Assembly: GCF_028736035.1 (NCBI RefSeq)
Contig: NZ_CP117866.1
Coordinates: 2,728,001-2,792,000, forward strand
Length of the DNA stretch: 64,000 nucleotides
Direction of reading: 5' to 3'
DNA from: Streptomyces sp. T12
Lineage (GTDB): Bacteria; Actinomycetota; Actinomycetes; Streptomycetales; Streptomycetaceae
Shown: piece after piece, positions 37,540-62,041 of the stretch
Numbering within the stretch: the first letter of the stretch is position 1
Layout: each line of letters opens with the position of its first letter
Translations under genes and position numbers: made by a program
Notes under the pieces: generated by a model
Told to the model about the DNA's origin: nothing
What the model saw: the letters and a program-made list of their open reading frames with translations, nothing else
The model's database searches: none

Positions 37540-37603
37540 GCGCGAATCCCCTTCCGCCGCAGAGCAGTTCGAGGCCACAGAATACGTAACCCGGGTACGG
37601 CAG

Positions 37604-37683: not shown

Positions 37684-40600
37684 TCACACTCCCGCGGGTT
37701 CGGGCTCCCCCGATTCCGCCGGCTGAGCGGGCGCCCCGGCCTTCTTCGCCGCCCGCTTCTTCGCCCGGCGCTCCTTGCGCAGCTCCAGCATCGTGTAGAG
37801 CGTCGGAACGAGCAGCAGCGTCAGCATGGTCGAGGTGATCAGACCGCCGATCACGACCACCGCCAGCGGCTGGGCGATGAAGCCGCCCTCGCCGGTGACA
37901 CCCGCGGCCATCGGGAGCAGCGCGAAGATCGTCGCCAGGGCCGTCATGAGGATCGGGCGCAGCCGGTGCCGGCCGCCCTCGATCACGGCCTCCACGACGC
38001 CGTAACCCTGCCTCCTGTACTGGTTGATGAGGTCGATCAGCACGATCGCGTTCGTCACCACGATGCCGATCAGCATCAGCATGCCGATCATCGCGGGGAC
38101 GCCCATCGGGGTGCCGGTCGCCACCAGGAGGCCGATCGCGCCGGTCGCCGCGAACGGGATCGACACGAGCAGGATGAGCGGCTGAGCCAGCGAGCGGAAG
38201 GTCGCCACCAGCAGCATGAAGACGATCGCGATCGCCGCGAGCATCGCCAGACCCAGGTTGGCGAACGCTTCGTCCTGGTCCTGCGAGACACCGCCGATCT
38301 CGGCGGTCGCGCCCGCCGGGAGGGTCAGACCGTTGATCTTGGACTGGAGGTCCGCGCTCACCGCGCCCGTGTTGTCGCCGGTCGGCTTCGCGGTGATCGT
38401 GGCGGCACGCTGACCGTCGATCCGGGTCATCGAGACCGGGCCGTCCACCAGCTGCACGTCCGCGATGTCACCCAGCTTCACCGGGCCAAGGCGCAGGTCC
38501 TGAAGCTGCTTCAGCGTCTTCGCGGGCTTCGCCGACTTGATGACGATGTCCCGCTCGGTGTCGTCGAGGGTCGCCTGGGCCGCCGTGTTGCCACGGACCG
38601 CCTGGGCGACGGCCATGCCGAGCGTCTGGTCGTTGAAGCCGGCCGCGGCCGCCTTGTCGTTGGCCTTGACCGAGATGCGCGGCACGCTCTGCGACAGGTC
38701 GCTGGTCACGTCCGTGACGTCGTCCAGGCCGGCCACCGCCTTGCGTACCTGCTCGGCCGCCGTGCGCAGGACGCCCCCGTCGGCCGCCTTCACGACGACG
38801 CTCAGGTCCTGGGCGCCGAAGCCGTCGCCGGCCGCGATGGTGGTCGTACCGATGCCGTCGAGCTTCTTCAGACCCGCCTCGATGCGGTCCTGCACCTCGT
38901 CGTACGACGCCGAGTCCTCCAGCATCACCTGGTACGACGCCTGGTTGGTGTCGGTGCCGCCGCCGAAGGCCGCCATGAAGCCGGACGAGCCGATGGTGAC
39001 CTGGTAGTCCTTCACGCCCTCGGTGTCGGCGAGCAGTTGCTCGACCTTCTTCGCCTGCGCGTCGGTCGCCGCCAGGCTGGTGCCCGGCTTCAACTCCTGC
39101 TTGACGGTGAGGACTTCCTGCTCGCCCTGGTCGAAGAAGTTCGTCTTCAGCAGCGGCGCCATGCCGAACGTGCCGATGAGGATGACGATCGCGAGCAGCA
39201 CGCTGGTCAGCCGGCGGCGCGTCGCGAACCGCAGGACGGGGACGTAGAAGCGCTGGAGCCTGCTCTTCGCCTCCTTCTCCTCGGCCTTGCGGCGGGCCTC
39301 GTCGGCGTCCGCCGGGGTGCCCTTCGGGGCGCGCAGGAACCAGTACGACAGGACCGGTACGACGGTCAGCGAGACCAGCAGCGATGCCAGCAGCGCGGCC
39401 GTCACCGTCAGGCTGAACGAGCCGAACAGCTCGCCCACCATGCCGCCGACCAGGCCGATCGGCAGGAAGACGGCGACCGTGGTGAGGGTGGAGGAGGTGA
39501 CCGCTCCGGCGACCTCGCGGACCGCCTTGAGGATGGCCTCCTCGCGCTCCTCGCCGTAGCCGAGGTGCCGCTTGATGTTCTCCAGCACCACGATCGAGTC
39601 GTCGACGACGCGGCCGATGGCGATGGTGAGCGCGCCGAGCGTCAGCATGTTCAGCGACAGGTCGCGCGTCCACAGCACGATCAGGGCGAGGACGACCGAC
39701 AGCGGGATGGAGACCGCGGTCACCAGCGTCGAGCGGATCGACGCGAGGAAGACCAGGATGATGAGGACCGCGAAGAGCAGGCCGAGCGCGCCCTCGGTGG
39801 TCAGGCCGTCGATGGACTTCTTCACCGCCGGGCCCTGGTCGCTGACCACGGTGAGCGTGGCGTCCGACCCGAGGTCCTTGCGTAGCTCCGGGAGCTTGTC
39901 GCGCACCGCGTCCGAGATCGCGACCGCGCTGCCGTCGCGGTCCATGGTGACCGCGACCGCGAGGGACGGCTTGCCGTCGGTGCGGGTGATGGAGTCGGCC
40001 GCGGCCTGCTCCTGCTTGACGTCGGCCACGTCACCGAGGCGGACCGGCTTCTTCCCGGCAGCGCCAGCGCCCTCGCCGGTGACCATGAGGTCCTCGATCT
40101 GCTGGATCGAGGTGAAGCCGCCGCCCACCTGGACCGTGCGGTTGTCGCCGTCCTCGTCGAAGGAGCCCGCCGGGACGGTGGCGCCGCCGGCCTGCAGGGC
40201 CTGGGAGAGGGCGGCCGAAGTGAGCCCCGCCTTGGCCAGCTTCGCGTCGTCCGGCGTGACGGTGACCTGGAGGTCCCGTACGCCGTCGACGGTGACCTGG
40301 CCGACGCCGTCGATGTCCTTCAGGTCCGCGACGACGGTCCGGTCGAGCTGGTCGGCCAGGGCCTGCTGGTCCTGGCCGGAGGTGACGGCGAGGACGACGG
40401 TCGGGATGTCGTCCGTGGAACCGGCGATGACCTGCGGGTCCACGTCGTCCGGCAGCTGGACGCGGGCCCGGTTGACGGCCTGCTGGACGTCGGCGACGAG
40501 CTGCTGGGTGTCGGGGCCGTAGTCGAAGGACGCCATGATCACGGCGTTGCCCTCGCTCGCGGTGGAGGTGACGCCGGTGATGCCGTCGACGGCTTCGAGG

Positions 40601-40812
40601 CTGTCCTCGATGGGCTCGACGACCTGCTTCTCGACCACGTCCGGTGAGGCGCCCTGGTACGGCGCCAGCACGGACACCATGGGCAGTTCGATGGAGGGCA
40701 GCAGCTGCTGCTTGAGCTGGGGTATCGCGATGGCTCCGAAGGCGATCGCGATGATCGACATCAGGCCTATCAGGGCACGTTGGGCAAGGCTGAATCTCGA
40801 CAGCCAGGACAT
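37684..40812 (-). CDS. RND family efflux transporter (HAE1/AcrB type)
   Basis: A 1042-residue protein with twelve membrane segments and two large external loops, in the AcrB layout. Visible marks are SIELPMVSVLAPYQGASPDVVE near the N-terminus, the TM4 signature GRVVDDSIVVLENIKRHLG, and GIVVTNAIVLIDLINQYRRQG in the second half. Gram-positive members such as Bacillus SwrC/YerP act without an outer-membrane channel, and no adaptor gene is near here. The substrate is unknown (drug, lipid or surfactant). A NarL-type two-component system follows on the same strand orientation. Confidence 0.93.
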   Translation of the reverse strand: MSWLSRFSLAQRALIGLMSIIAIAFGAIAIPQLKQQLLPSIELPMVSVLAPYQGASPDVVEKQVVEPIEDSLEAVDGITGVTSTASEGNAVIMASFDYGPDTQQLVADVQQAVNRARVQLPDDVDPQVIAGSTDDIPTVVLAVTSGQDQQALADQLDRTVVADLKDIDGVGQVTVDGVRDLQVTVTPDDAKLAKAGLTSAALSQALQAGGATVPAGSFDEDGDNRTVQVGGGFTSIQQIEDLMVTGEGAGAAGKKPVRLGDVADVKQEQAAADSITRTDGKPSLAVAVTMDRDGSAVAISDAVRDKLPELRKDLGSDATLTVVSDQGPAVKKSIDGLTTEGALGLLFAVLIILVFLASIRSTLVTAVSIPLSVVLALIVLWTRDLSLNMLTLGALTIAIGRVVDDSIVVLENIKRHLGYGEEREEAILKAVREVAGAVTSSTLTTVAVFLPIGLVGGMVGELFGSFSLTVTAALLASLLVSLTVVPVLSYWFLRAPKGTPADADEARRKAEEKEAKSRLQRFYVPVLRFATRRRLTSVLLAIVILIGTFGMAPLLKTNFFDQGEQEVLTVKQELKPGTSLAATDAQAKKVEQLLADTEGVKDYQVTIGSSGFMAAFGGGTDTNQASYQVMLEDSASYDEVQDRIEAGLKKLDGIGTTTIAAGDGFGAQDLSVVVKAADGGVLRTAAEQVRKAVAGLDDVTDVTSDLSQSVPRISVKANDKAAAAGFNDQTLGMAVAQAVRGNTAAQATLDDTERDIVIKSAKPAKTLKQLQDLRLGPVKLGDIADVQLVDGPVSMTRIDGQRAATITAKPTGDNTGAVSADLQSKINGLTLPAGATAEIGGVSQDQDEAFANLGLAMLAAIAIVFMLLVATFRSLAQPLILLVSIPFAATGAIGLLVATGTPMGVPAMIGMLMLIGIVVTNAIVLIDLINQYRRQGYGVVEAVIEGGRHRLRPILMTALATIFALLPMAAGVTGEGGFIAQPLAVVVIGGLITSTMLTLLLVPTLYTMLELRKERRAKKRAAKKAGAPAQPAESGEPEPAGV

Positions 40813-51130: not shown

Positions 51131-51826
51131 GTGATGAACACCCTCGGCCGCCGGGCCCGTGCCGAGTGGGGGGCGTTGTATCTCGCCGTGCGGGAGCCGT
51201 TGGTGCAGCGGCGGTGGCGGGCCGTACCGATGACCCTCGGGGCCGTCTGCCTGACGGGGCTCGTGCAGGTCGTGCAGAACCAGTCCTGGGGGTACCAGGT
51301 CGTCCAGGACCTCGGGGCGGTGAAGGCCGAGGATCCGCTGTGGCTCGCGCTCCTGCGGACGCCGCTGTCGTTGTTCGTGCCCGCCCTCGACCTGCCGGTG
51401 TGGGGTGCGCTCGCGCAGATTCTGCTCGTGTTCGGGATCGCCGAGCTCTGTCTGGGCTGGTGGCGAACGCTCGTCATCGCGTACGTCGCGACCCTCGCCG
51501 GAACCCTGTACGCGCGCGTGGGCATCGCGCTCGGCCCGGACCACCCGATCGGGCTGCCCGCCTCGGACGCGCAGGTCGTGGACACGGGACCGTCGGCGGC
51601 GGTGGTGGGCCTCGCCGTGTTCCTCGGATGGCGCTACGGCGCGTATGTCACGGCCGCTGCGGTGATCGTGGCGATGGTGGTCGAGGTGGTGCTGGAGGAC
51701 AACCTCGCCGGGAAGGAGCACCTGGCGGCGATCGCGGCGGTGCTGGTGCTGTGCGCGGGGACGGCGCTGCGTCAGTGGCGTTCCAGGGCCCGGTCCACGT
51801 CGGGCGCGCCGCCGATCCAGTCCTGA
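51131..51826 (+). CDS. Rhomboid-like integral membrane protein
   Basis: A 231-residue protein with about six membrane segments. VVDTGPSAAVVGLAVFLGW resembles the rhomboid serine motif region (GxSx), and KEHLAAIAAVLVL gives a His in the last helix where the catalytic dyad would need it. The usual HxxxN oxyanion motif is not obvious, so it may be an active divergent protease or a pseudo-rhomboid. GTG 51131 is taken; ATG 51134 is next. Its end overlaps the convergent gene by 55 bases. Confidence 0.65.
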   Translation: MMNTLGRRARAEWGALYLAVREPLVQRRWRAVPMTLGAVCLTGLVQVVQNQSWGYQVVQDLGAVKAEDPLWLALLRTPLSLFVPALDLPVWGALAQILLVFGIAELCLGWWRTLVIAYVATLAGTLYARVGIALGPDHPIGLPASDAQVVDTGPSAAVVGLAVFLGWRYGAYVTAAAVIVAMVVEVVLEDNLAGKEHLAAIAAVLVLCAGTALRQWRSRARSTSGAPPIQS

Positions 51827-52530
51827 AGTTTGCGGCTGGGGCCCGCCCAGCGCCGGTCGTGGTGGAAGGCGCGCAGCTGGGCCTTGGCGCGGGCGCGCGG
51901 ACGGCGACGGTAGAAGCGTCTGGCCCAGGGGGAGGCGGGACGGGCCAGGCGGACGGCGCCGAACAGGGCGATGAAGGGGACGACCACCCCGAAGATCGCG
52001 ATCCGGGCCTTGCCCTTGGCCAGGGCGATCAGGGCCAGGAGGAAGTTCCCGAGGACCGTACTGATCACCGACCCGCGGTTCTGCAGTTCGTCGTCGCTGA
52101 GGTCGTTGACCCCGAAGGGTGCGTAGCCGAGGAGGAACAGGCCGACCACGGCGGCGGTGAGCACGACCACCTCGACGCTCTTGCGGCCGGCCTCGGTCCA
52201 GTAGACGTCGTCCAGATGCACGATCAGCGCGAACTCGTCCATGACCAGGCCCGCGCCCATCCCGAACACCACGGCGGCCACGGCCGCGCCGAAGCCGTGC
52301 TGACCGCCGGCGACCGCGCAGAAGCCACCGATGACCGTGAGGACGATTCCGGGGACGACATGGTGGATGTGGACGGCGCCGGTCTCGATGTTGCGGAAGG
52401 GGCCTTTGCCCGCGCGGATCATGCGGGTGATGACCCGGGTGACGACGAAGGTGACCACGAAGGCGGTCAGCGCCAGGAGCAGGGGAAGCTTGCCCGGTTC
52501 GATGATGTTGCGCTGCCACCAGTCACCCAT
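51772..52530 (-). CDS. Integral membrane protein, conserved hypothetical
   Basis: A 252-residue protein with about six membrane segments and a basic C-terminal tail (RRFYRRRPRARAKAQLRAF). Conserved-looking elements are TGAVHIHHVVPGIVL near segment 2 and GLVMDEFALIVHLDDVYWTEAGRKSVE after segment 4. The His and Asp/Glu residues could bind a metal or form an active site. I do not recognise the family. It overlaps the rhomboid-like gene at its 3' end and is divergent from cobS. Confidence 0.75.
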   Translation of the reverse strand: MGDWWQRNIIEPGKLPLLLALTAFVVTFVVTRVITRMIRAGKGPFRNIETGAVHIHHVVPGIVLTVIGGFCAVAGGQHGFGAAVAAVVFGMGAGLVMDEFALIVHLDDVYWTEAGRKSVEVVVLTAAVVGLFLLGYAPFGVNDLSDDELQNRGSVISTVLGNFLLALIALAKGKARIAIFGVVVPFIALFGAVRLARPASPWARRFYRRRPRARAKAQLRAFHHDRRWAGPSRKLQDWIGGAPDVDRALERH

Positions 52531-52585
52531 GGTTTCAGTGTGTCCGCGCCAGGGGTGGGCCGCCTGGCGGATACGGCGTCCGGGC

Positions 52586-52591
52586 TACTCT
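52586..52591 (+). promoter_or_regulatory. Leaderless -10 element before cobS
   Basis: TACTCT lies 6 bases before the GTG at 52598; no ribosome-binding site is present. Confidence 0.5.
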
Positions 52592-52597
52592 GCGGGC

Positions 52598-53434
52598 GTG
52601 TCCATGACCCCGCCGCCCCTGCACGGCCTCCGTCTGCACGGCCTCCGCTTCGCCTTCGGCACCCTGAGCGTGCTCCCCGTCAAGGTGAGCCGGTGGGACC
52701 GGGAAGCGGCGCGCGGCGGGATGCTGTGCGCCCCGCTGGTCGGGGTGGTGCTCGGCTGCGGCGCCGCGCTAGTCGCCCTTCTGCTGCTGTTCCTCGGCGC
52801 CGGTCCTCTCCTGGCCGCCGTCGCGGCCGCCGCCGTGCCCGCCGCCCTCACCCGCGGACTGCATCTCGACGGGCTCGCCGACACCGCCGACGGGCTCGGC
52901 AGCGGCAAGCCCGCCGAGGACGCGCTGCGGATCATGAAGCAGTCGGACATCGGGCCGTTCGGCGTCATCACCCTCGTGTTGGTGCTGTTCGCGCAGGTGG
53001 CCGCCCTCTCGCAGCTGTACGGCGACTCATGGGCCCGGGGCGCCCTCGCCACCGTCGTCTCGGCGGTCGCCGCCCGGCTCGCGCTCACCCTGGCCGCCCG
53101 GGCCGGCGTGCCCGCCGCACGGCCGGAGGGGCTGGGGGCGGCGGTGGCCGGCGTCGTGCCCGTACGTAGTGCGGTGGCCGTCGCCCTGGCCGTGACCGGC
53201 GTCGCCGCCGCGGCGGGAGCGCTGCTCGGGACGTACGACGTGACGAACGGCGTGACGTACGGCACGACGAACGGCATCGCCCGCACCGCCCTCGCGGTCC
53301 TCGCCGCACTCGCCACCGCCGAGCTGCTCCTGCGGCACTGCACGCGCCGCTTCGGCGGCGCCACCGGTGACGTGTTCGGCGGGCTCGCGGAGACGGCGGC
53401 GACGACCGCGCTCGTCGTGCTGTCACTGGGCTGA
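52598..53434 (+). CDS. cobS: Adenosylcobinamide-GDP ribazoletransferase
   Basis: A 278-residue membrane enzyme that joins adenosylcobinamide-GDP to alpha-ribazole in the last steps of cobalamin synthesis. LRFAFGTLSVLPV at the start, and LTRGLHLDGLADTADGLG and MKQSDIGPFGVITLV, are CobS signatures with the metal-binding aspartates. A short repetitive loop (TYDVTNGVTYGTTNG) lies near residue 220. The GTG at 52598 fits a leaderless start; an ATG two codons later is possible. Confidence 0.93.
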   Translation: MSMTPPPLHGLRLHGLRFAFGTLSVLPVKVSRWDREAARGGMLCAPLVGVVLGCGAALVALLLLFLGAGPLLAAVAAAAVPAALTRGLHLDGLADTADGLGSGKPAEDALRIMKQSDIGPFGVITLVLVLFAQVAALSQLYGDSWARGALATVVSAVAARLALTLAARAGVPAARPEGLGAAVAGVVPVRSAVAVALAVTGVAAAAGALLGTYDVTNGVTYGTTNGIARTALAVLAALATAELLLRHCTRRFGGATGDVFGGLAETAATTALVVLSLG

Positions 53435-53437
53435 CCC

Positions 53438-54250
53438 TCAGCACGCCCGGCGCCATACCCCCAGTTCGTACTTCTTCAGCATCGAACTCAGCTTCAGGCG
53501 ACGCGACTCGGCACAGAAGCTGCGCGTCGGGACCTCGTACTCGACGTGGAACACCGCCTTGCCCGCCTTCACGAAGGGGCTCAGGGTCGCGCACTCCCCG
53601 TACTGCGCGCACTGCTCGTTGACCGCGAAGTCGAAGTCGTCCACCAGCTCCGGGATCTGGTCCAGGTCGTTCTTCAGGCCGACCGCCATGCCCCGCTCGT
53701 GGGCGAGCCCGGCGATCAGGCGGTTGTAGCGGAGCTGGTCGCGGGCCTTCAGGGGGAAGCCGGTGCGGTTCTTGTAGCCGTCCATGTTGTCGGGCTCCAC
53801 CGCGTCGAAGCCCTTCTCGCGGCACATGTCCAGCCGGGCCGCCATCAGGGGTTCCAGGACGTCCAGGCGCCGGATGTCGAGCCAGCGCTCGCCCTCCCAG
53901 CCGTTGCCCTTGCCGATCACCGACTTGGGGAACTTCCCGGCGTCGGGGCGCCAGTCCTCCCAGGCCCCGGTGGAGAGGTAGCAGATGACCTTGCGGTCCT
54001 CGCGGTGCAGCGCGGCGACGGTCTTCCCGGACTGGTCGAAGCCGTCGATGTCGTAGACCGGCACGTCGACGGAGGTGTCGATACGGCCGCGGAGCTGCCA
54101 CTGCCAGGCCGTGCCGGGCCGCGGCTGCCAGCGCGAGCCGCTCGGACCACCCTCGCCGCCCTCGCCGTCGCCGGCGCCGTCAGGGGCCGTCGTGCAGCCC
54201 GCCAGGAGGAGGAGAGGCAGAACAACCAGCGGAATGATGAGGCGTCTCAC
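53438..54250 (-). CDS. GH114-type endo-alpha-1,4-polygalactosaminidase, lipoprotein
   Basis: A 270-residue secreted protein with lipobox LLLAGCTT. The TIM-barrel GH114 pattern is clear: WQWQLRGRIDTSVDVPVYDI, DRKVICYLSTGAWEDWRPD, ERWLDIR, GFDAVEPDNMDGY, GLKNDLDQIPELVDDFDFAV and EQCAQYGEC. The acidic residues in YDID and EPDNMD are likely catalytic. The family cleaves alpha-1,4-linked galactosamine polymers and is related to the hydrolase domain of PelA. It overlaps the preceding gene by 4 bases and is last in the operon. Confidence 0.88.
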   Translation of the reverse strand: MRRLIIPLVVLPLLLLAGCTTAPDGAGDGEGGEGGPSGSRWQPRPGTAWQWQLRGRIDTSVDVPVYDIDGFDQSGKTVAALHREDRKVICYLSTGAWEDWRPDAGKFPKSVIGKGNGWEGERWLDIRRLDVLEPLMAARLDMCREKGFDAVEPDNMDGYKNRTGFPLKARDQLRYNRLIAGLAHERGMAVGLKNDLDQIPELVDDFDFAVNEQCAQYGECATLSPFVKAGKAVFHVEYEVPTRSFCAESRRLKLSSMLKKYELGVWRRAC

Positions 54251-54915
54251 CGAGCGGGCTCCAGAGTGTGCGGCAACGTTCCCCAAGGATGATCGCCCAT
54301 CCCCGGTACCGCGCAGTGCACGGTGGCCCCGCGGGCGCGGGCCAGGTCCGCCAGCTCGGCCCCGGCCGGGACGCCGTACACCAGATGGCACAGGCGCACT
54401 CCGCCGCCGCCACGCCACTGCGGCGGGCCGAGCCGGGTGTACGACGTCCAGGTGCCCTCGAAGGTGACCAGGACGTCCGCGATCCTGGCGTACGACGGGT
54501 GCGGTGTCGTGCCGTGGTTCAGGGCGAGCGTGCCGCAGCCGGCGCCCCAGGCCGCCGTCGCGAGCCGCTGGTAGTACGCGAACTCCTCGCGTCCCGCGGC
54601 GACTTGGTCGAGGAAGACGCCGTCCGCGTCGTACCAGTCGCGGTGCCGGGCGATGTCGCGTGCGACGTCGGCGTGCGGTCGGCGGCCGTAGTCGGTGTCG
54701 GCGTAGCCGAGCACCCGCACGCCCCCCGAGGGGGTGCCCCCGGCGCCGCGCAGCCGGGTCACGACCTCGGCGAACGCCGGGTCGGGCGCCTCGCCGGGGC
54801 CGCTGGCCGGGTTGAGGACGACCCCGTAGAGGCGGGGCGCGGCCGCGATGATCGCGTCCCATTCGGCGGGGCGGACGGACGGGTGCTCGTAGTAAGGGAC
54901 CAGCAGCTCGCTCAT
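54247..54915 (-). CDS. Spherulin-4 family protein, probable glycosidase-like
   Basis: A 222-residue protein without a signal peptide. MSELLVPYYEHPS, VVLNPASGPGEAPD, VLGYADTDYGRR and DGVFLDQVA fit the spherulation-specific family 4, a TIM-barrel related to GH114. It is joined by 4-base overlaps to the membrane protein before it and the GH114 gene after it. With no export signal it may act inside the cell or on nascent polymer; a short GGTPSGG segment is encoded by G/C-rich repeat-like sequence. Confidence 0.82.
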   Translation of the reverse strand: MSELLVPYYEHPSVRPAEWDAIIAAAPRLYGVVLNPASGPGEAPDPAFAEVVTRLRGAGGTPSGGVRVLGYADTDYGRRPHADVARDIARHRDWYDADGVFLDQVAAGREEFAYYQRLATAAWGAGCGTLALNHGTTPHPSYARIADVLVTFEGTWTSYTRLGPPQWRGGGGVRLCHLVYGVPAGAELADLARARGATVHCAVPGMGDHPWGTLPHTLEPAR

Positions 54916-56453
54916 CGGTGGGCGGTCGCCCTCCCCAACAGCGCGCAGACCAGGACGACTTGGGCCACCGCCGCCGTCCCGTGCACGATCAGGCCGACCC
55001 CGTGCGGGCTGCCCGAGTGCGTCACCAGGGCCACCGTCTGGGCGAGGGCCGTCGCGCAGCAGATCGTCGCGGCGCTGAGCACCGCACCGAAGGACTGCAG
55101 GAGCAGGCCCGTCCACAGGACCACGCCCAGCAGGAGCAGACCTGCGAGGCGGACGCCTGAGACACCCGGGGCGTGCGGCCACAGCGCCGAGGTGGCGAGG
55201 CTCAGGGCGAGCAGGGCGACCAGGTAGCCGGAGAGGCACTCCACGACCGTGCGCACCGTCGTCCGGCAGAACGCCCTCGGCGTGCTGCTGGAACGCAGGC
55301 CCGCCAGGCTGCCGCTGCGGAAGCGGTACAGCAGCCATTCGGCGGGGCCCATGCTGAGGGTGAGGGCGACGGCGGCGGGCGCGGCGACCGCGCCGGTCCC
55401 GGCCCCCTCGTCCGCCAGGACGTCTCCCAGGGCCGCGTACAGGACGAGCACGCCGGTGCCCAGGCCGAAAAGGGCGTACGGGAGGGAGCCGGTGAGGCCG
55501 GGAGTGGCGGTGCGCTCCGGCTGCCCCTCGGGTGCGGTGCCGTACGGTCCGAAGGGCAGGAGGGCGGTGAGTCCGGCGGTCCAGCCGCCCTTGCCCCACT
55601 CCCTTGTGGCAGGCGCGACTTCGAGGAACGCGAGCACCGCCACCGCGAGCAGGGAGCCCAGCAGCAGCGCGGATCCCGCCAGGTCGGGGATGGGGTGGAG
55701 GAGGGCGAGGACCGCTGCCGCCGCCATCGGCAGCAGGGCCGCCAGCAGGGCCCGTTCGCGGCCCATGACCAGCAGGACCGTCGCCGCGCCGAGGTAGCAG
55801 GACTGCCCGGCGGCGAAGGCGGCCGCCGCCGCGTCGAACGTACCCGCCGTCCCCGCGACGACCAGGGCGACCAGGGCGCCGAGCAGGGCGCCCGCCGGTG
55901 CGCCGAGGAGCAGGGAGCGGCGGGCGGCGCCCCGGTCGCCCAGCCCGAGCCAGGAGTACGCCCGGTGGGCGAGACCCTGGTTCCAGGTCCAGCCGGTCAG
56001 GGCGCCGGCCAGCAGCGGGACCGTGCCCGCGGGCAGGCCGAAGTCGCCCTGCGGGCCCGCGAGCAGGGGGGCGCCGAGGACGTAGCCGAAGCCGGGAAGG
56101 GCGAAGACCACGCCTCTGAGCAGGCAGCCGAGCAGGCCCACCTGCCAGGGGTCGTGGGCCGGGCCGTCCGGCTCCGGGTAGCGGCGCTCGACCCGCTCGA
56201 AGAGTTCCTCGGCCAGGGCGAAGGAGTTCTTGACGCCGTAGCGCTCGCGTATCTGGTCGTCCGACAGTCCGTCGGACTCCAGCAGTGCGGCGATCTCGTC
56301 CGGGTGGACGGCGGCGGCTATGAAGTCGTCGAGGCGTTCGGCGAGTTCGTCGAGGGGGTCGGGCTGCGCCCAGCTGGGTGTGGTGCGCCGGCGCGGGACG
56401 GCGGGCAGGGTGTCGGGGCGGGAGCCGGGCGGCATCCAGATGCTTCCGCTCAC
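54912..56453 (-). CDS. Polytopic membrane protein of the Pel-like cluster
   Basis: A 513-residue protein, GTG start overlapping the glycosyltransferase stop. The first 125 residues are soluble (LDELAERLDDFIAAAVHPDEIAALLES, SDDQIRERYGVKNSFALAEELF), then about twelve membrane segments follow. The size and topology resemble the exporter PelG, but I see no clear sequence match, and it could be a different flippase or synthase partner. Its place between a PelF-like transferase and two polymer-cleaving proteins suggests a role in moving the polymer across the membrane (inference). Confidence 0.75.
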   Translation of the reverse strand: MSGSIWMPPGSRPDTLPAVPRRRTTPSWAQPDPLDELAERLDDFIAAAVHPDEIAALLESDGLSDDQIRERYGVKNSFALAEELFERVERRYPEPDGPAHDPWQVGLLGCLLRGVVFALPGFGYVLGAPLLAGPQGDFGLPAGTVPLLAGALTGWTWNQGLAHRAYSWLGLGDRGAARRSLLLGAPAGALLGALVALVVAGTAGTFDAAAAAFAAGQSCYLGAATVLLVMGRERALLAALLPMAAAAVLALLHPIPDLAGSALLLGSLLAVAVLAFLEVAPATREWGKGGWTAGLTALLPFGPYGTAPEGQPERTATPGLTGSLPYALFGLGTGVLVLYAALGDVLADEGAGTGAVAAPAAVALTLSMGPAEWLLYRFRSGSLAGLRSSSTPRAFCRTTVRTVVECLSGYLVALLALSLATSALWPHAPGVSGVRLAGLLLLGVVLWTGLLLQSFGAVLSAATICCATALAQTVALVTHSGSPHGVGLIVHGTAAVAQVVLVCALLGRATAHR

Positions 56454-57970
56454 CAGCCGGTTCCGTCCGTCGCGACCTTCTCGTACCAGGGGTCGCGCAG
56501 TTCGAGGGTCCAGTCGGCGACCGTCTCCAGAGTGGGCTCGTACACCTCGGTGCTGCCCGCGAGCTCCTGGTAGATCGTCCGGAAATTGTCCACGGAGCGG
56601 CGCAGCGTGAAGCGGTCGATCACGCGCTGACGGGACAACTCACCCAGTTTCAGGCGCCGTTCGTCGTCGCGGAGCAGGGTCAGCGCGGCCGCCGCCATCT
56701 TCTCCGGTTCGCGCGGCGGGACCACCAGGCCGGTGTCGCCGACGGCCTCGCGCACTCCCCCGACGTCCGTCGAGACCGTCGTGCGGCCGCAGGACATGGC
56801 CTCGATGAGGGAGAACGGGAAGCCCTCGGAGATGGACGACAGCATGACGACGTGACCGGCGGCGTAGGCGCGCCAGACCTCGCTGATGCACCCCTCGAAG
56901 GTCAGGCCGTCCGTCACGCCCAGCTCGGCGGCGAGCTTCTCCAGCTTGGTGCGGTAGGCCTCGCCTCCCGGTGGAACCGGGCCGAACAACCGCAGTCGGG
57001 TTTCCGGGAGTTCGGCGCGGACCATGCCGTAGGCCCGCAGCAGGGTCTCCAGGTCCTTGATGGGGTCGACGCGGCCGCACCAGGTGAGGGTGGGGACCTC
57101 GGGCTCGGGGCCGGCGTGCGGGAAGGCGTGCGGGTCGACGCCGTTGTAGACGGTGCGGATCTTGTCGGCGTCGGCGCCGCCGCGCTCCTCCCAGCGGCGG
57201 TTGTACTGGTTGCAGGGGGTGATCAGGTCGGCCGTCCGGTAACCGAGTGAATTCAGCTCACGGTAGAAGCCGAGCATGAACGCCTTCACGGGCCAGCGCT
57301 GGGCGTCGCTGCGGTAGCCGAGGTAGCGCTCGCGCAGATAGATGCCGTGCTCGGTGAGGAGGAAGGGCACGCCGTCCAGCTTGCGGGCGGCGAGGGCCGG
57401 GAGAGTCGCAAGGCCGCTGCTCACCGCGTGGGCGACGGAGTCCTCGGGGATGCGGATCCCCAGGGGGCGCAGGGCGTGTTCCAGCAGGTCGGTCGCGGTC
57501 AGGGCGTCGTGGACGGTCGGTCGGGCGGCGGCGGTCGGCAGATGCGGCATCGTCCACATCCACATCAGCGACCGCAGCGCCGACTCGGTGCGCAGCGCCG
57601 CCGACAGGCGCCCGTCGCGGGCGAGTTGGGCCAGCTCGTACAGGGCCTCACCGAAGTCGCCACTCGCCTCGGGGTCGAGGAAGGAGAGCAGGAAGCGCTC
57701 GTAGGAGTCGGTGAAACGGCGCCGGGCCCTGCCGTACGGCGCGTGTTTGCGCCCCGGGCGCGGGCCCCAGGTCGGTACGGAGATGTGCCGGTACACGTTC
57801 TGCGGCAGCTCCCAGGTGACGGGTTCGCGGCCGGTTCCGGTGAGCGACACGATGTGGAAGTCGACCTCCGGCATGCCCTTGACGAGCTGGTCGCACCAGG
57901 TGCTGACTCCGCCGTGGACGTGCGGATAGGTGCCTTCGGTGAGCATGGTGACATGACGGCCTGTGCGCAT
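56450..57970 (-). CDS. pelF: PelF-like GT4 glycosyltransferase (DUF3492)
   Basis: A 506-residue cytoplasmic enzyme. MLTEGTYPHVHGGVSTWCDQ is the DUF3492 start specific to PelF. LLTEHGIYLRERYL, TPCNQYNRRWEERGG, VYNGVDPHAF, CGRVDPIKDLETLLRAY and SEGFPFSLIEAMSCGRTTVS (donor-binding Glu motif) follow. PelF polymerises the UDP-activated amino sugars of Pel. Here the gene lies in an operon with a deacetylase and two galactosaminidase-type proteins. The symbol reflects homology; identity of the polymer is inferred. Confidence 0.85.
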   Translation of the reverse strand: MRTGRHVTMLTEGTYPHVHGGVSTWCDQLVKGMPEVDFHIVSLTGTGREPVTWELPQNVYRHISVPTWGPRPGRKHAPYGRARRRFTDSYERFLLSFLDPEASGDFGEALYELAQLARDGRLSAALRTESALRSLMWMWTMPHLPTAAARPTVHDALTATDLLEHALRPLGIRIPEDSVAHAVSSGLATLPALAARKLDGVPFLLTEHGIYLRERYLGYRSDAQRWPVKAFMLGFYRELNSLGYRTADLITPCNQYNRRWEERGGADADKIRTVYNGVDPHAFPHAGPEPEVPTLTWCGRVDPIKDLETLLRAYGMVRAELPETRLRLFGPVPPGGEAYRTKLEKLAAELGVTDGLTFEGCISEVWRAYAAGHVVMLSSISEGFPFSLIEAMSCGRTTVSTDVGGVREAVGDTGLVVPPREPEKMAAAALTLLRDDERRLKLGELSRQRVIDRFTLRRSVDNFRTIYQELAGSTEVYEPTLETVADWTLELRDPWYEKVATDGTGW

Positions 57971-58029
57971 CGCTGCGTTGCTTCCCCCTGTAGTGCGGAT
58001 GATGTGCGGGGAACTGCTGCCCGGACCCC

Positions 58030-58110
58030 GGCTGCGGGTTCGTCGTGGCTGGTCGCGCCCGCGCGGCGGAGCCGCATATCGATACAGCCCCGCGCCCCTG
58101 ACGGGGCGCT
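58030..58110 (+). repeat. Dispersed intergenic repeat, family 1, copy 3
   Basis: GTGGCTGGTCGCGCCC, a GCGCGGCGGAGCCGC hairpin and CAGCCCCGCGCCCCTGACGG, close to copies at 14846 and 28520. It lies between the deacetylase and glycosyltransferase genes, on the strand opposite to both. Confidence 0.85.
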
Positions 58111-58114
58111 CCAG

Positions 58115-60148
58115 CTAAGGCAGCTTCAGCGTCACTGCCGACTGCAGTGGCTCCGGCGTGGTCCAAGCCGAGCGCCTGCCCGCGTACGGTGTCCCGAACG
58201 CGGTGGTGGAGAGCAGGAGTTGCTTCCCGGTGCCCTCCGGTGCGGTCACCGGGATCCGGGTCCCGGACGGTGCGGTGATCGTGACCGTGGTGCCGATCCG
58301 GTACGCCGTGACCTTGCCGGCCGCCAGCGCGGTCCGCCAGGCGGCGCGGCGCTGGAGCTCGGTGCCGATGGCGCTCTGCGCGAGGTTCTCCACCGGGGTG
58401 TTGTCGGCGAAGAGCGCCTGGTAGTCGGCGAGCACCTTGTCCAGGACGGGGTACAGCGTCCGGTCCTCGGCCAGGTTGGACTGGTGGGCGTAGTGCGGCC
58501 GCGGGTCGTTGCTGATCACGTGCCCGAGGGCGGTGCGGGCCTCCAGCGGAACGATGTACTCGGTGTACCCGGTGGCCGGGTCCAGCGGGTCGTCGAGGCA
58601 GGTGGAGGCGGGGTTGTTCGCGCAGATGCCGCTGCCGCCGTCGGCCGTGGAGGTGTAGATCCAGTTGTACTCGTCGACCATCTCCTCCTCGGTACCCACG
58701 TTGTAGTACACGTTCATCGGGTGCCGGGGCACGGTCAGGGCGGCGCCGACCGCACGCTGGCCGGGCTCACGGGAGTTGTCCGAGGCGGTCCACTTGACGC
58801 CGTTGTCAGCGAGGGCGCCGGCCAGGTCGGGGTTGTCGTCGGGCTGCTGCGGCAGGGTCTTCAGGCCCGAGTGCTCGCCGGTCACGAGTTCCGTGCGGTC
58901 GAGCGGGAGCCCCTTGGTGACGCCCCAGTCGTAGTTGTTTCGGATCTGCGCCGAGATGTCCGCGCGGCTCATGTACCGGGTCGAGCCGTCGGCGTTCTCG
59001 GCGCAGCTCCAGGGGACGGTCGAGGTGTCCTGGACGCATCCCAGGAACGCGTGCGTGTAGGTGTGGTTGATCCAGCGGTACTGCGCCTTGTCGGCGAGCA
59101 GCCGGTCGGCGAGCGGGTCGGTGCCGCCGTTCGCGCTCTTCCACTCCTCGCCGGACCCGGCGTTGTAGACCATGTCCAGCGTGAAGCCGTGCTCCTGCTG
59201 CCACTGCGCGGCGTGGACCGCGTCCTCGGCCGTCATACGGATCGGCGTGGTCCCCCCGCCGTCACCGCCCACGCAGTCGAAGTCACCGGGCGTGCAGTTG
59301 TGTTCGGTGTCCCAGCGGCTGTCGGGCGCGAGGACGTCGTCGACGTGCACCGCGAGATAGTTGCGCGCCTGGCCCAGGTGCACGCCCTGAGTCAGCCATT
59401 CGACGATGCCACGGGCAAGCACCCGGAACTGCTGCTGGTACTCGTTGTACGCGAAGGTCACGACCAGTTCGCGGCGCCCGTCGTGGCTGTACTCGCCGAT
59501 CAGGCTGCCGCGCCCGGAGCCGGCGGGCACGGGGATGTCGACATAGCTGGTGAAGCCCGTCCGGGGCCTGGCGACGAAGCCGTAACTCTCCTGTACGGAC
59601 GCGTCGTTGTCCTCGAACGTGAAGGCGCCGTCGAGATAGCCGAAGTACCCCGCCCTGCCCTCGGTCGTGACGGAGGCCGCCCGCCCGTCGAGAGTGCCGG
59701 CCCAGCCGCCCTCGCTGGTGTAGTCGAGGCCGACGCCCGGGTGGGCCCAGGTGTAGGCGTCGACCTGCGGGATGCCGTAGGTCCGCTCGTAGCTCTCCAG
59801 CGCGGTCTGCTCGGCGGAGCCCGCGCCGAAGGGGGCCTCGCTCGGCAGGACGACGCCTTGGTACTTGGCCCGGGGCGTGCCGTTCACCGTGTCGCTGAGG
59901 AACGCGTCCGTGATGGTCGGGCGGTTCGCGTCGGTCAGGTCGACGGTGGTGTACGGGATGCCGGTGCTCTTGAGCTGGGCGGTGATGGCCCGGACGGGGC
60001 TGTCGCCGTTGTCCACGACCAGCACCCTGAGATCGATGCGCGGCTCCTCGGCGGCCGCGGCGCCGGGCACTCCCAGACCCAGCGCCAGCAGACCGGCGGC
60101 CGCCACAGCAGCGGCCGCGTTTCTCCAGATGTGCGCACTCTGCGCCAT
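58115..60148 (-). CDS. Secreted PelA-like polysaccharide deacetylase
   Basis: A 677-residue exported protein with a Sec signal ending near GAAAAEE; the start is near 60148 (MAQSAHIWRN), and longer readings are unlikely. After an N-terminal beta region (about 30-300), the catalytic part has NYLAVHVDDVLAPDSRWD, WINHTYTHAFLGC, TGEHSGL and HYAHQSNL. The Asp-Asp pair and HTYTH motif match metal-dependent deacetylases of the carbohydrate esterase type as in PelA. A C-terminal beta-sandwich follows. It probably removes acetyl groups from an amino-sugar polymer outside the cell. Four further cluster genes follow after a 144-base gap. Confidence 0.82.
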   Translation of the reverse strand: MAQSAHIWRNAAAAVAAAGLLALGLGVPGAAAAEEPRIDLRVLVVDNGDSPVRAITAQLKSTGIPYTTVDLTDANRPTITDAFLSDTVNGTPRAKYQGVVLPSEAPFGAGSAEQTALESYERTYGIPQVDAYTWAHPGVGLDYTSEGGWAGTLDGRAASVTTEGRAGYFGYLDGAFTFEDNDASVQESYGFVARPRTGFTSYVDIPVPAGSGRGSLIGEYSHDGRRELVVTFAYNEYQQQFRVLARGIVEWLTQGVHLGQARNYLAVHVDDVLAPDSRWDTEHNCTPGDFDCVGGDGGGTTPIRMTAEDAVHAAQWQQEHGFTLDMVYNAGSGEEWKSANGGTDPLADRLLADKAQYRWINHTYTHAFLGCVQDTSTVPWSCAENADGSTRYMSRADISAQIRNNYDWGVTKGLPLDRTELVTGEHSGLKTLPQQPDDNPDLAGALADNGVKWTASDNSREPGQRAVGAALTVPRHPMNVYYNVGTEEEMVDEYNWIYTSTADGGSGICANNPASTCLDDPLDPATGYTEYIVPLEARTALGHVISNDPRPHYAHQSNLAEDRTLYPVLDKVLADYQALFADNTPVENLAQSAIGTELQRRAAWRTALAAGKVTAYRIGTTVTITAPSGTRIPVTAPEGTGKQLLLSTTAFGTPYAGRRSAWTTPEPLQSAVTLKLP

Positions 60149-60502
60149 TGGTCGCCCCTTCCCCCCGGAAGATCCCCTTGCTTCCCCTTGCGATGAATCG
60201 GCGGAGGATCCGTGGAAATCATGCAAAGCGGCAAGCTGATGGCTCACCGGAACCAGACGAGTGTGACTCAGCTCACCAAGATCGAGGATCAAGAAATGGC
60301 GACGACGCCACCGACAGGTGAACGCCCGTAGGAATGAGCGAACGCTCACACGAGCGTAGGCTCGTCCCGAGTGTTCGCCGTACCGGGGAAGGCCCCGCTG
60401 CTACCGCACCCGTAGGTCGGAACTAGGGTCGGCCGTCGGGCCCGGTCGACCCACACCATTCGGCCATCGCAAACTTCACATCGGAAGCGAGATTTCACCA
60501 CC
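60149..60502. other. Divergent region between the deacetylase and pepA genes
   Basis: A 354-base gap with promoters for both directions but no gene I can support. TGAGCG (60335) and CGCTCA (60343) form a short inverted repeat, and CGAGC/GCTCG (60351-60364) a second one. These may be operator sites. The segment near 60440-60500 is AT-richer and is the likely pepA leader. Confidence 0.5.
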
Positions 60503-62041
60503 GTGACTGCTCTCACTCTCAGCACCGCCGCGGCGCCCGGCCTGCGGGCCGACGCGATCGTGATCGGTGTCGCCAAGGGCGCCAAGAGCCCGGTTGTCGC
60601 ACCGGGCGCAGAGGCTGTGGACAAGGCGTACGACGGCAAGCTCGCCGGCGTCCTGGAGACCCTCGGTGCCTCGGGCGCCGAGGGCGAGGTGACGAAGCTC
60701 CCCGCACCCGCCGGCTTCAAGGCCCCGCTCGTGGTGGCAGTGGGCCTGGGTGCCGAGCCCGAGGACCCCAAGGACGGGGCCTACGACGGCGAGGCCCTGC
60801 GCAAGGCCGCCGGTGTCGCCGCCCGCGCCCTCGCCGGCTCCAAGAAGGCCGCGTTCGCGCTGCCGCTGGGCGACGCCGGTGACGTCGGCGCCGTCGCCGA
60901 GGGCGTGCTGCTCGGGGCGTACGCCTTCGACGCCTACAAGGGCAACGACAACAACGTTCAGGACAAGAAGAAGAACGGCAAGGCGCCCCTCGCCGAGGCC
61001 GCGCTGCTCGGCGGCAAGCCGCGCGACAAGGAGCACAAGGCGGCGATCGAGCGCGCCACCGCCGTCTCCGAGGAGCTCAACCGCGCCCGCGACCTGATCA
61101 ACACCCCGCCGAACGACCTCACCCCCGAGTCCTTCGCCGCGATCGCCTCGGCGGCGGCCAAGGAGCACGGCATCAAGGTGCAGGTGCTCGACGAGAAGGC
61201 GCTGGCCAAGGGCGGCTACGGCGGCATCCTGGGCGTCGGCTCCGGGTCGGCGGCCGGCCCGCGGCTGGTGAAGCTGACGTACACGAGCTCCAAGTCGGCC
61301 AAGCACCTCGCCTTCGTCGGCAAGGGCATCACCTACGACTCGGGCGGCATCTCGCTGAAGCCGGCCGGGCACAACGAGACGATGAAGTGCGACATGAGCG
61401 GTGCGGCCGCCGTGTTCGCCGCCGTCGTCGCCGCCGCGCGCCTCGGTCTCGAGGTGAACATCACCGGGTGGCTGGCGCTCGCCGAGAACATGCCGTCGGG
61501 CTCCGCCGTGCGCCCGGGTGACGTGCTGCGCATGTACAGCGGCAAGACGGTGGAGGTGCTCAACACGGACGCCGAGGGCCGGCTGGTGCTCGCGGACGCG
61601 CTGTGGGCGGCGTCGCAGGAGAAGCCGGACGCGATCGTGGACGTCGCGACGCTGACCGGGGCGATGGTGCTGGCGCTGGGCAACCGGACGTTCGGTGTCA
61701 TGGCCAACGACGACGCGTTCCGCTCCGCGATCGTGGAGGCGGCCGAGGAGGTCGGCGAGGAGTCCTGGCCGATGCCGCTGCCGGAGCACCTGCGCAAGGG
61801 GATGGACTCGCCGACCGCCGACATCGCCAACATGGGTGAGCGCATGGGTGGGGGCCTGGTCGCCGGTCTCTTCCTGCGTGAGTTCGTGGGCGAGGGCATC
61901 ACGTGGGGGCACGTCGACATCGCCGGTCCCGCGTTCAACGAGGGCGGGCCCTTCGGCTACACACCGAAGGGTGGTACCGGTAGCGCGGTGCGGACGCTGG
62001 TTCGGCTGGCCGAGCTGACGGCGGCCGGCGACCTGGGCTGA
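60503..62041 (+). CDS. pepA: Leucyl aminopeptidase (M17)
   Basis: A 512-residue peptidase with a GTG start at 60503. The C-terminal catalytic half has VGKGITYDSGGISLKPAG, MKCDMSGAAAVFAA and the M17 signature NTDAEGRLVLADAL, giving the two-metal site and catalytic Lys and Arg. The N-terminal domain is a macro-like fold. It removes N-terminal residues from peptides in the cytoplasm. A hairpin terminator follows. Confidence 0.95.
   Translation: MTALTLSTAAAPGLRADAIVIGVAKGAKSPVVAPGAEAVDKAYDGKLAGVLETLGASGAEGEVTKLPAPAGFKAPLVVAVGLGAEPEDPKDGAYDGEALRKAAGVAARALAGSKKAAFALPLGDAGDVGAVAEGVLLGAYAFDAYKGNDNNVQDKKKNGKAPLAEAALLGGKPRDKEHKAAIERATAVSEELNRARDLINTPPNDLTPESFAAIASAAAKEHGIKVQVLDEKALAKGGYGGILGVGSGSAAGPRLVKLTYTSSKSAKHLAFVGKGITYDSGGISLKPAGHNETMKCDMSGAAAVFAAVVAAARLGLEVNITGWLALAENMPSGSAVRPGDVLRMYSGKTVEVLNTDAEGRLVLADALWAASQEKPDAIVDVATLTGAMVLALGNRTFGVMANDDAFRSAIVEAAEEVGEESWPMPLPEHLRKGMDSPTADIANMGERMGGGLVAGLFLREFVGEGITWGHVDIAGPAFNEGGPFGYTPKGGTGSAVRTLVRLAELTAAGDLG

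Follow-up and report, generated by a model that had tools for sequence, protein, structure and literature searches.

A five-gene Streptomyces locus that looks akin to the galactosaminogalactan (GAG) gene cluster of fungi

Is the run of five genes between pepA and cobS in Streptomyces sp. T12 a Pel locus from which parts have been lost, or does it belong with a different type of galactosamine polymer system? The initial annotation, made on the window (the whole 64,000-nucleotide stretch analysed), took it to be a minimal Pel system. In our reading it is probably a galactosaminogalactan (GAG)-type exopolysaccharide operon, in which a GT4 glycosyltransferase (GT) and a MOP protein would act as synthase-exporter, with Agd3-like deacetylation and GH114 trimming of the product; the genes resemble a bacterial version of the cluster known from fungi rather than a Pel operon that has been pruned. 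The five leftward genes first described are all present as intact ORFs, and the 4-base overlaps ascribed to the last four, GT through GH114, are seen at all three junctions (GTGA, ATGA and GTGA). The features, with the flanking genes, are:

52331-53434, plus strand: cobS, cobalamin-5-phosphate synthase, convergent; stops 3 bases short of the GH114 gene; start approximate
53438-54250, minus strand: GH114 endo-alpha-1,4-polygalactosaminidase, lipoprotein, 270 aa; lipobox LAGC
54247-54915, minus strand: spherulin-4 (GH135-like) hydrolase, 222 aa; starts at barrel strand 1; D102 and E152 conserved
54912-56453, minus strand: 12-TM membrane protein of MOP-superfamily fold, 513 aa; N-terminal cytoplasmic helical domain at about residues 33-90
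56450-57970, minus strand: cytoplasmic GT4 family glycosyltransferase, DUF3492/PelF type, 506 aa; EX7E at residue 382
57971-58114, minus strand: deacetylase-GT intergenic sequence, 144 bp; hairpin-like GCGCCCCGTCAGGGGCGC and a repeat-like stretch at 58068-58098; single copy in the 64-kb window
58115-60148, minus strand: secreted Agd3-like (CE18-like) polysaccharide deacetylase, 677 aa; CBM87-like N-terminal domain, CE domain and C-terminal beta region
60149-60460, minus strand: conserved region upstream of the deacetylase, presumed promoter/leader; blocks GTTCACC, TCACACTCGTC and GCATGATTTCCACGGATCC
60503-62041, plus strand: pepA, M17 leucyl aminopeptidase, divergent from the operon

The neighbouring frame at 51772-52530 (minus strand) has no family match. 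Alignment of 21 upstream regions, the window's own among them, suggests a regulated promoter 5′ of the deacetylase gene, and no known operator was identified in it. That the locus is conserved as a unit, for which a neighbourhood survey had been proposed as a check, is borne out: among 68 pepA-to-cobS loci the deacetylase-GT-membrane protein trio is retained in 62, all five genes are present in 46, and only the four genes other than GH114 in 12. Across 81 sequences, again with the window among them, the 4-base overlap recurs at 61 of 67 GT/membrane protein pairs, 40 of 59 membrane protein/spherulin-4 pairs and 44 of 46 spherulin-4/GH114 pairs, which is more than chance. The set also occurs, whole or partial, in five loci that represent as many other families of the same class.

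What in these genes speaks for Pel? The GT was named as a DUF3492/PelF-type enzyme and it is one, with 198.6 bits to Pfam DUF3492 and 166.7 bits to the NCBIfam PelF model NF038011 (cut-off 100), and its passing the latter is a point for a reduced but true Pel system consisting of PelF, a diverged PelG and a PelA whose deacetylase and hydrolase have become separate proteins, PelD and PelE having been lost; it is counted for the GAG-type reading as well. Against it, a GT tree, neither dated nor rooted, places three proteobacterial PelFs apart from the remaining 35 rows (support 100/100), but on long branches and with a warning from the tool that such joins may be false; these three, two of which adjoin PelG while the third is on an unannotated record, are the only PelFs in the tree.

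The deacetylase had been described as secreted and PelA-like. The first part stands, as there is an AxA-type signal peptide; the second does not, for both profile and fold match Agd3. Its profile matched Agd3 among solved structures (6nwz, E 7.7e-14) and did not match PelA at E<=1, though PelA chains are in the structure set searched; the single sequence gave a chance match only. The Pfam scores are sub-threshold (Agd3_CE 16.5 and CBM87_Agd3 15.4 bits, cut-offs 27.6; a third Pfam match is at chance level), and so it is termed Agd3-like and is not filed as CE18. The CE-domain residues are D270/D271, H362/H366, R475 and H555, of which D270/D271 and H555 align with D377/D378 and H668 of Agd3, R475 corresponds to Agd3 R613 within one residue by count, and the HxxxH is invariant in the alignment. 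Agd3 M666, reported as essential (PMC7229062), is faced by an aromatic residue (Tyr or Phe) in 19 rows out of 20; the remaining row has Thr. The structure model is weak (pLDDT 67.4, pTM 0.53) and, as its match to the Agd3 fold has a large rmsd (18.2), it does no more than back the profile match.

The GH114 protein scores 295.6 bits to PF03537 and 210 bits (E 2.9e-61) to Ega3 (6ojb), and D154/E212 correspond by spacing to the Ega3 catalytic pair D189/E247. Against solved structures (E<=10) Ega3 was matched and PelA was not, whereas a hydrolase encoded next to a canonical Pel locus recovered PelA, at 159 bits, from the same structure set. By sequence, neither the deacetylase profile nor the GH114 protein matched PelA, and the hydrolase is of the Ega3 type (GH114), not the PelA type (GH166). 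A crude lipobox pattern is present in 49 of 50 GH114 proteins. The window copy was the only GH114 hit in a genome scan, a type of scan that can miss members.

For the membrane protein no family was found in Pfam or NCBIfam. The 12 segments originally assigned to it are plausible, as some 12 long helices follow residue 100 in its AlphaFold model, although a simple hydropathy count gives 9 segments, fewer than the model. The model matches the two-bundle 12-TM MATE/Wzx/MurJ (MOP) fold, with WzxE and MurJ among the matches. PelG is a member of the MOP superfamily and is described as a putative exopolysaccharide exporter, and here too there is something in favour of a true Pel system. Nevertheless PelG was not found at the locus: PF16933 had no Pfam match there, the best hit of a genome scan reached 26 bits, under the cut-off of 29, and is located elsewhere in the genome, and profile-profile comparison by hhalign gave a probability of 0.06% with a PelG profile of two sequences only. 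By its sequence, then, the membrane protein is not PelG, yet a MOP fold common to both is possible. The absence of PelD that had been noted stands, since a genome scan gave no PF16963 match while both of two Pel-bearing plasmids, the positive control, were detected. On these component tests, with Agd3 and Ega3-type GH114 matched instead of PelA and its GH166, and with PelG and PelD unmatched, the ‘minimal Pel’ interpretation was rejected, and we consider it unlikely.

The spherulin-4 protein was correctly identified at the outset. It scores 110.5 bits to PF12138 and matches Sph3 (5c5g, E 1.1e-11), and the catalytic Asp and Glu are retained in all 66 of the pepA-type loci with a match (in one locus it is in two pieces). 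The alpha-1,4 GalNAc/GalN polymer put forward initially is retained as the likely product, given the matches to both GH114 and GH135. The protein lacks a signal peptide and is predicted to be cytoplasmic; in the fungal model Sph3 is located outside, and that model has no counterpart of a cytoplasmic GH135.

This bears on whether the set makes a polymer at all or is instead a degradative, antagonistic one directed against fungal GAG, which a secreted deacetylase and a surface GH114 could digest. The deacetylase does occur without the GT and membrane protein in 6 of the 68 loci, a survival that an obligate synthesis operon does not predict. However, GT and membrane protein stand in the same unit in the 62 others, and an apparently cytoplasmic GH135-like protein would be useless against a polymer outside, so a degradative role seems highly improbable.

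How GT and membrane protein are joined elsewhere is also informative. Among 120 listed long GT relatives, 63 match the membrane-protein profile (E<1e-5), and 60 are fusions in which the match covers 300 or more of the 474 profile positions; none of the 120 listed, from 218 GT matches, is named as fungal, most rows being unnamed. Fusion of one GT with its membrane partner, as in these relatives, fits a synthase-dependent route. It argues against the pair making a wall-bound glycan, wall teichoic or another GalNAc polymer, with the hydrolases remodelling the wall during hyphal growth, and so does the lack, among the immediate neighbours tested, of an undecaprenyl-linked first-sugar transferase, polymerase or ligase. 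On the other side, MOP proteins also flip lipid-linked sugars, as the WzxE and MurJ matches recall, and low levels of a galactosamine polysaccharide are mentioned for Streptomyces walls in PMC7229062. On balance a wall-glycan role is improbable.

With the fungal cluster (uge3, gtb3/gt4c, agd3, sph3, ega3; Aspergillus fumigatus, Neurospora crassa) the locus shares a GT, an Agd3-type deacetylase, a GH135 spherulin-4 and a GH114 galactosaminidase, with catalytic residues retained; on the Streptomyces side it differs in having two genes for the GT and the membrane part, in the predicted cytoplasmic location of the GH135-like protein and in lacking an epimerase. None of the five genes that pepA and cobS flank codes for a UDP-glucose/GalNAc 4-epimerase, so UDP-GalNAc must be supplied from elsewhere. 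This weighs against the GAG-type reading, as do the deacetylase scores below the Agd3 cut-offs of Pfam, the residue at the M666 position, the lack of GH114 in many loci that are complete in other respects, the 6 loci with a deacetylase but neither GT nor membrane protein, and the predicted inside location of the GH135-like protein. The operon type is already in print, actinobacterial operons of this kind having been outlined in 2020 (Bamford et al. 2020, PMC7229062). In the portions of that text available to us these agd3 operons have, as here, a cytoplasmic GT, a multi-spanning membrane protein, an Agd3 homologue and GH114, and in some Actinobacteria spherulin-4 too; those portions do not deal with the membrane-protein fold, the fusions, the bacterial spherulin-4 compartment or the pepA-cobS Streptomyces locus, of which no description was found in open-licence literature by titles and abstract openings. 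Pel operons, Pseudomonas pelA-G and the Gram-positive pelDEA(DA)FG of Bacillus cereus (PMC7112168), share the PelF-type GT and the type of product, deacetylated and GalNAc-rich (predicted here), but in the present case PelD was unmatched, PelG is absent by sequence, and the deacetylase and hydrolase belong to other families. A Deinococcus ficus plasmid locus has a PelF-type GT, the same membrane-protein family (112.7 bits), hydrolases and an Agd3-like enzyme which is above the Pfam cut-offs (48.1 bits Agd3_CE, 64.5 bits CBM87_Agd3); it differs in having sugar-nucleotide genes and two hydrolases of which the first finds PelA, at 78 bits, and no spherulin match was found in that stretch.

For a GAG-type operon we infer the following substrate, linkage and order of action. 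From UDP-GalNAc, possibly together with other sugars, the cytoplasmic GT4 would build an alpha-1,4 chain, which the MOP-fold protein, GT-fused in other bacteria, would export; at the inner side the GH135-like protein may cut or edit the acetylated nascent chain. The secreted Agd3-like enzyme would deacetylate the chain as it emerges and so render it cationic and adhesive, and the GH114 lipoprotein would cut deacetylated stretches at the surface.

There is a second Streptomyces locus, beside moeZ, with a GT, a membrane protein, an epimerase and a catalytically degenerate GH135-like protein that lacks the acid/base Glu. By hmmscan the latter scores 75 bits to Spherulin4, yet a genome-wide Spherulin4 scan gave the window copy only, from which it follows that such scans can miss members; the 225.7 bits of the second-locus membrane protein are circular, as it is a row of the alignment behind the profile. 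A speculative extension, which we regard as possible though doubtful, is that Streptomyces has two paralogous GAG-type GT4-MOP synthases, with the window GH135 proof-reading or sizing the chain before export and that of the near-universal second locus being a structural or gating subunit, and that the bacterial split and fused forms reveal an origin of the fungal single-protein synthase before transfer.

A membrane protein that had no family name gains a testable role as exporter. If a cationic galactosamine polymer is made, it would be a matrix for adhesion, presumably of hyphae, and for pellet formation in Streptomyces. It would also provide a natural substrate for the endogalactosaminidase of Streptomyces griseus, known since 1975 (Reissig, cited in PMC7229062, PMC12054363) and, according to PMC12054363, without a sequence. 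And the fungal GAG cluster, whose product is a virulence polymer, has been proposed to stem from bacteria, an origin that would, if our reading is true, be open to study in Streptomyces as a harmless host.

All five genes that the initial annotation read as a minimal Pel-like galactosamine exopolysaccharide system are present and intact on the reverse strand, namely those for an Agd3-like deacetylase (58115-60148), a DUF3492/PelF-type glycosyltransferase (GT; 56450-57970), a membrane protein with a predicted MOP-type fold (54912-56453), a GH135-like spherulin-4 (54247-54915) and a GH114 protein (53438-54250), and the 4-base overlaps that it gave to the last four are seen at all three junctions. 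Deacetylase and GT are 144 bp apart, and the flanking genes are pepA (M17 aminopeptidase), divergent, and cobS, convergent. The window is 2,728,001-2,792,000 of an 11.36-Mb contig, and the named proteins closest to its deacetylase are from Streptomyces. Within the 144-bp gap, 58068-58098 is a GC-rich repeat-like stretch, single copy in the window; dispersed repeats resembling it occur in Streptomyces. Elsewhere in the window, 37684-40812 encodes a full-length AcrB-type RND transporter (ACR_tran 724 bits), in a Gram-positive genome, and the adjoining 35293-37578 a PQQ-repeat protein kinase.

How much of Pel is there? PelD, which the initial annotation gave as missing from the locus, was not found in a scan of the T12 genome, the control being positive on 2/2 Pel-bearing plasmids. 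PelG scores 514 bits in the canonical Paraburkholderia Pel locus (L130); in the T12 genome none was found over the cut-off, the one sub-threshold place being away from the locus, and when profiles were compared, the membrane protein gave a probability of 0.06% against PelG, whose profile was built from two sequences. The hydrolase adjoining L130 matches PelA at 159 bits with Ega3 absent from its matches, so the PelA/Ega3 match test distinguishes both hydrolase types.

A deacetylase-profile scan of named genomes confirmed at least 519 relatives, the best 80 of which were retained (71-94% identity; all Streptomyces but one, labelled Actinobacteria), a sample biased to close relatives. In 80/80 of these pepA adjoins the deacetylase. 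Gene content was scored by tblastn (E<=1e-6); 68 of the 80 loci reach cobS, the other 12 stopping early at contig ends. In this neighbourhood survey, which the initial annotation had proposed, the five genes occur together in 46/68; 12 loci lack GH114, 2 spherulin and 2 both, five have the deacetylase alone (L083, L103, L106, L110, L126) and one deacetylase and GH114 alone (L095). Strongly conserved blocks upstream of the window deacetylase (60149-60460) also precede the deacetylase where it stands alone in L106 and L110. The deacetylase is present in 10/22 genus genomes among those listed and in 5/224 outside the genus, two of the five weak; the membrane-protein profile reaches at least 150 bits in 39/81 sampled genus genomes, a count that includes a sister type, marked by an epimerase-like gene.

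Among 20 further loci, that sister type is represented by seven from Streptomyces (L029, L033, L035, L037, L039-L041), with a spherulin match in all but L033 (6/7). Pfam, which among them covers L033 only, identifies its inserted genes as a GDP-mannose dehydratase-type SDR and a nucleotidyltransferase, and a Streptomyces californicus plasmid (L132) has the same annotation. Eight more of the 20 belong to the pepA type. Seven of these have deacetylase, GT, membrane protein and spherulin; GH114 is seen in three of the seven, and one contig stops before its position. The eighth, L038, has the deacetylase alone between pepA and cobS; its genome bears a sister operon elsewhere (L039). The last five of the 20 represent five other families within the class: L043 and L044 are complete, with all five parts, L042 gives no tblastn match to the membrane protein, yet a frame there aligns with it at 24%, L045 begins at a contig end, without GT, and in the available stretch of L046 spherulin and GH114 were not found. 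Deinococcus ficus has a related operon (L129), akin to the sister operon with sugar-nucleotide genes inserted.

There is also a second Streptomyces locus:

L003:9878-16444 (G000:C1 about 7072877-7079443; 7.07 Mb), GT, membrane protein, epimerase and spherulin-4, adjoining moeZ

Its GT scores 102.8 bits against the PelF cut-off of 100. This gene order occurs in 15/16 loci examined, L003 counted, L143 being without spherulin. DUF3492 is matched in 16/16 same-genus genomes among the matches listed and in 3 further genomes of the class; 158/197 genomes have no match. The acid/base Glu is replaced in 15/15 second-locus spherulins, by Ser (7), Arg (5), Ala (2) or Gln (1), so that the protein looks like a conserved pseudoenzyme; the nucleophile Asp is retained in 11/15.

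Where would the products act? Crude sequence patterns predict a secreted deacetylase (AxA in 80/81), a lipoprotein GH114 (lipobox in 49/50) and a cytoplasmic GT. The window spherulin probably sits inside the cell, since it starts at the first barrel strand and five N-termini inspected have no signal peptide; as strand 1 is hydrophobic, the N-terminal hydropathy value is not decisive. Fungal Sph3, in contrast, is outside the membrane, according to PMC12054363.

In titles and abstract openings, and in passages of the papers cited here, no published account was found of the membrane-protein fold, GT-MOP fusions, the predicted cytoplasmic GH135 or the second locus's degenerate GH135. The kind of operon is already known, since Gram-positive Pel loci are treated in Whitfield et al. 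2020 (PMC7112168), and actinobacterial agd3 operons with a GT, a multi-spanning membrane protein, GH114 and, in some, spherulin-4 in Bamford et al. 2020 (PMC7229062); the latter paper also favours transfer to fungi. It is likely that the five genes encode a synthase-exporter of the type that makes fungal galactosaminogalactan, with deacetylation and trimming after synthesis.
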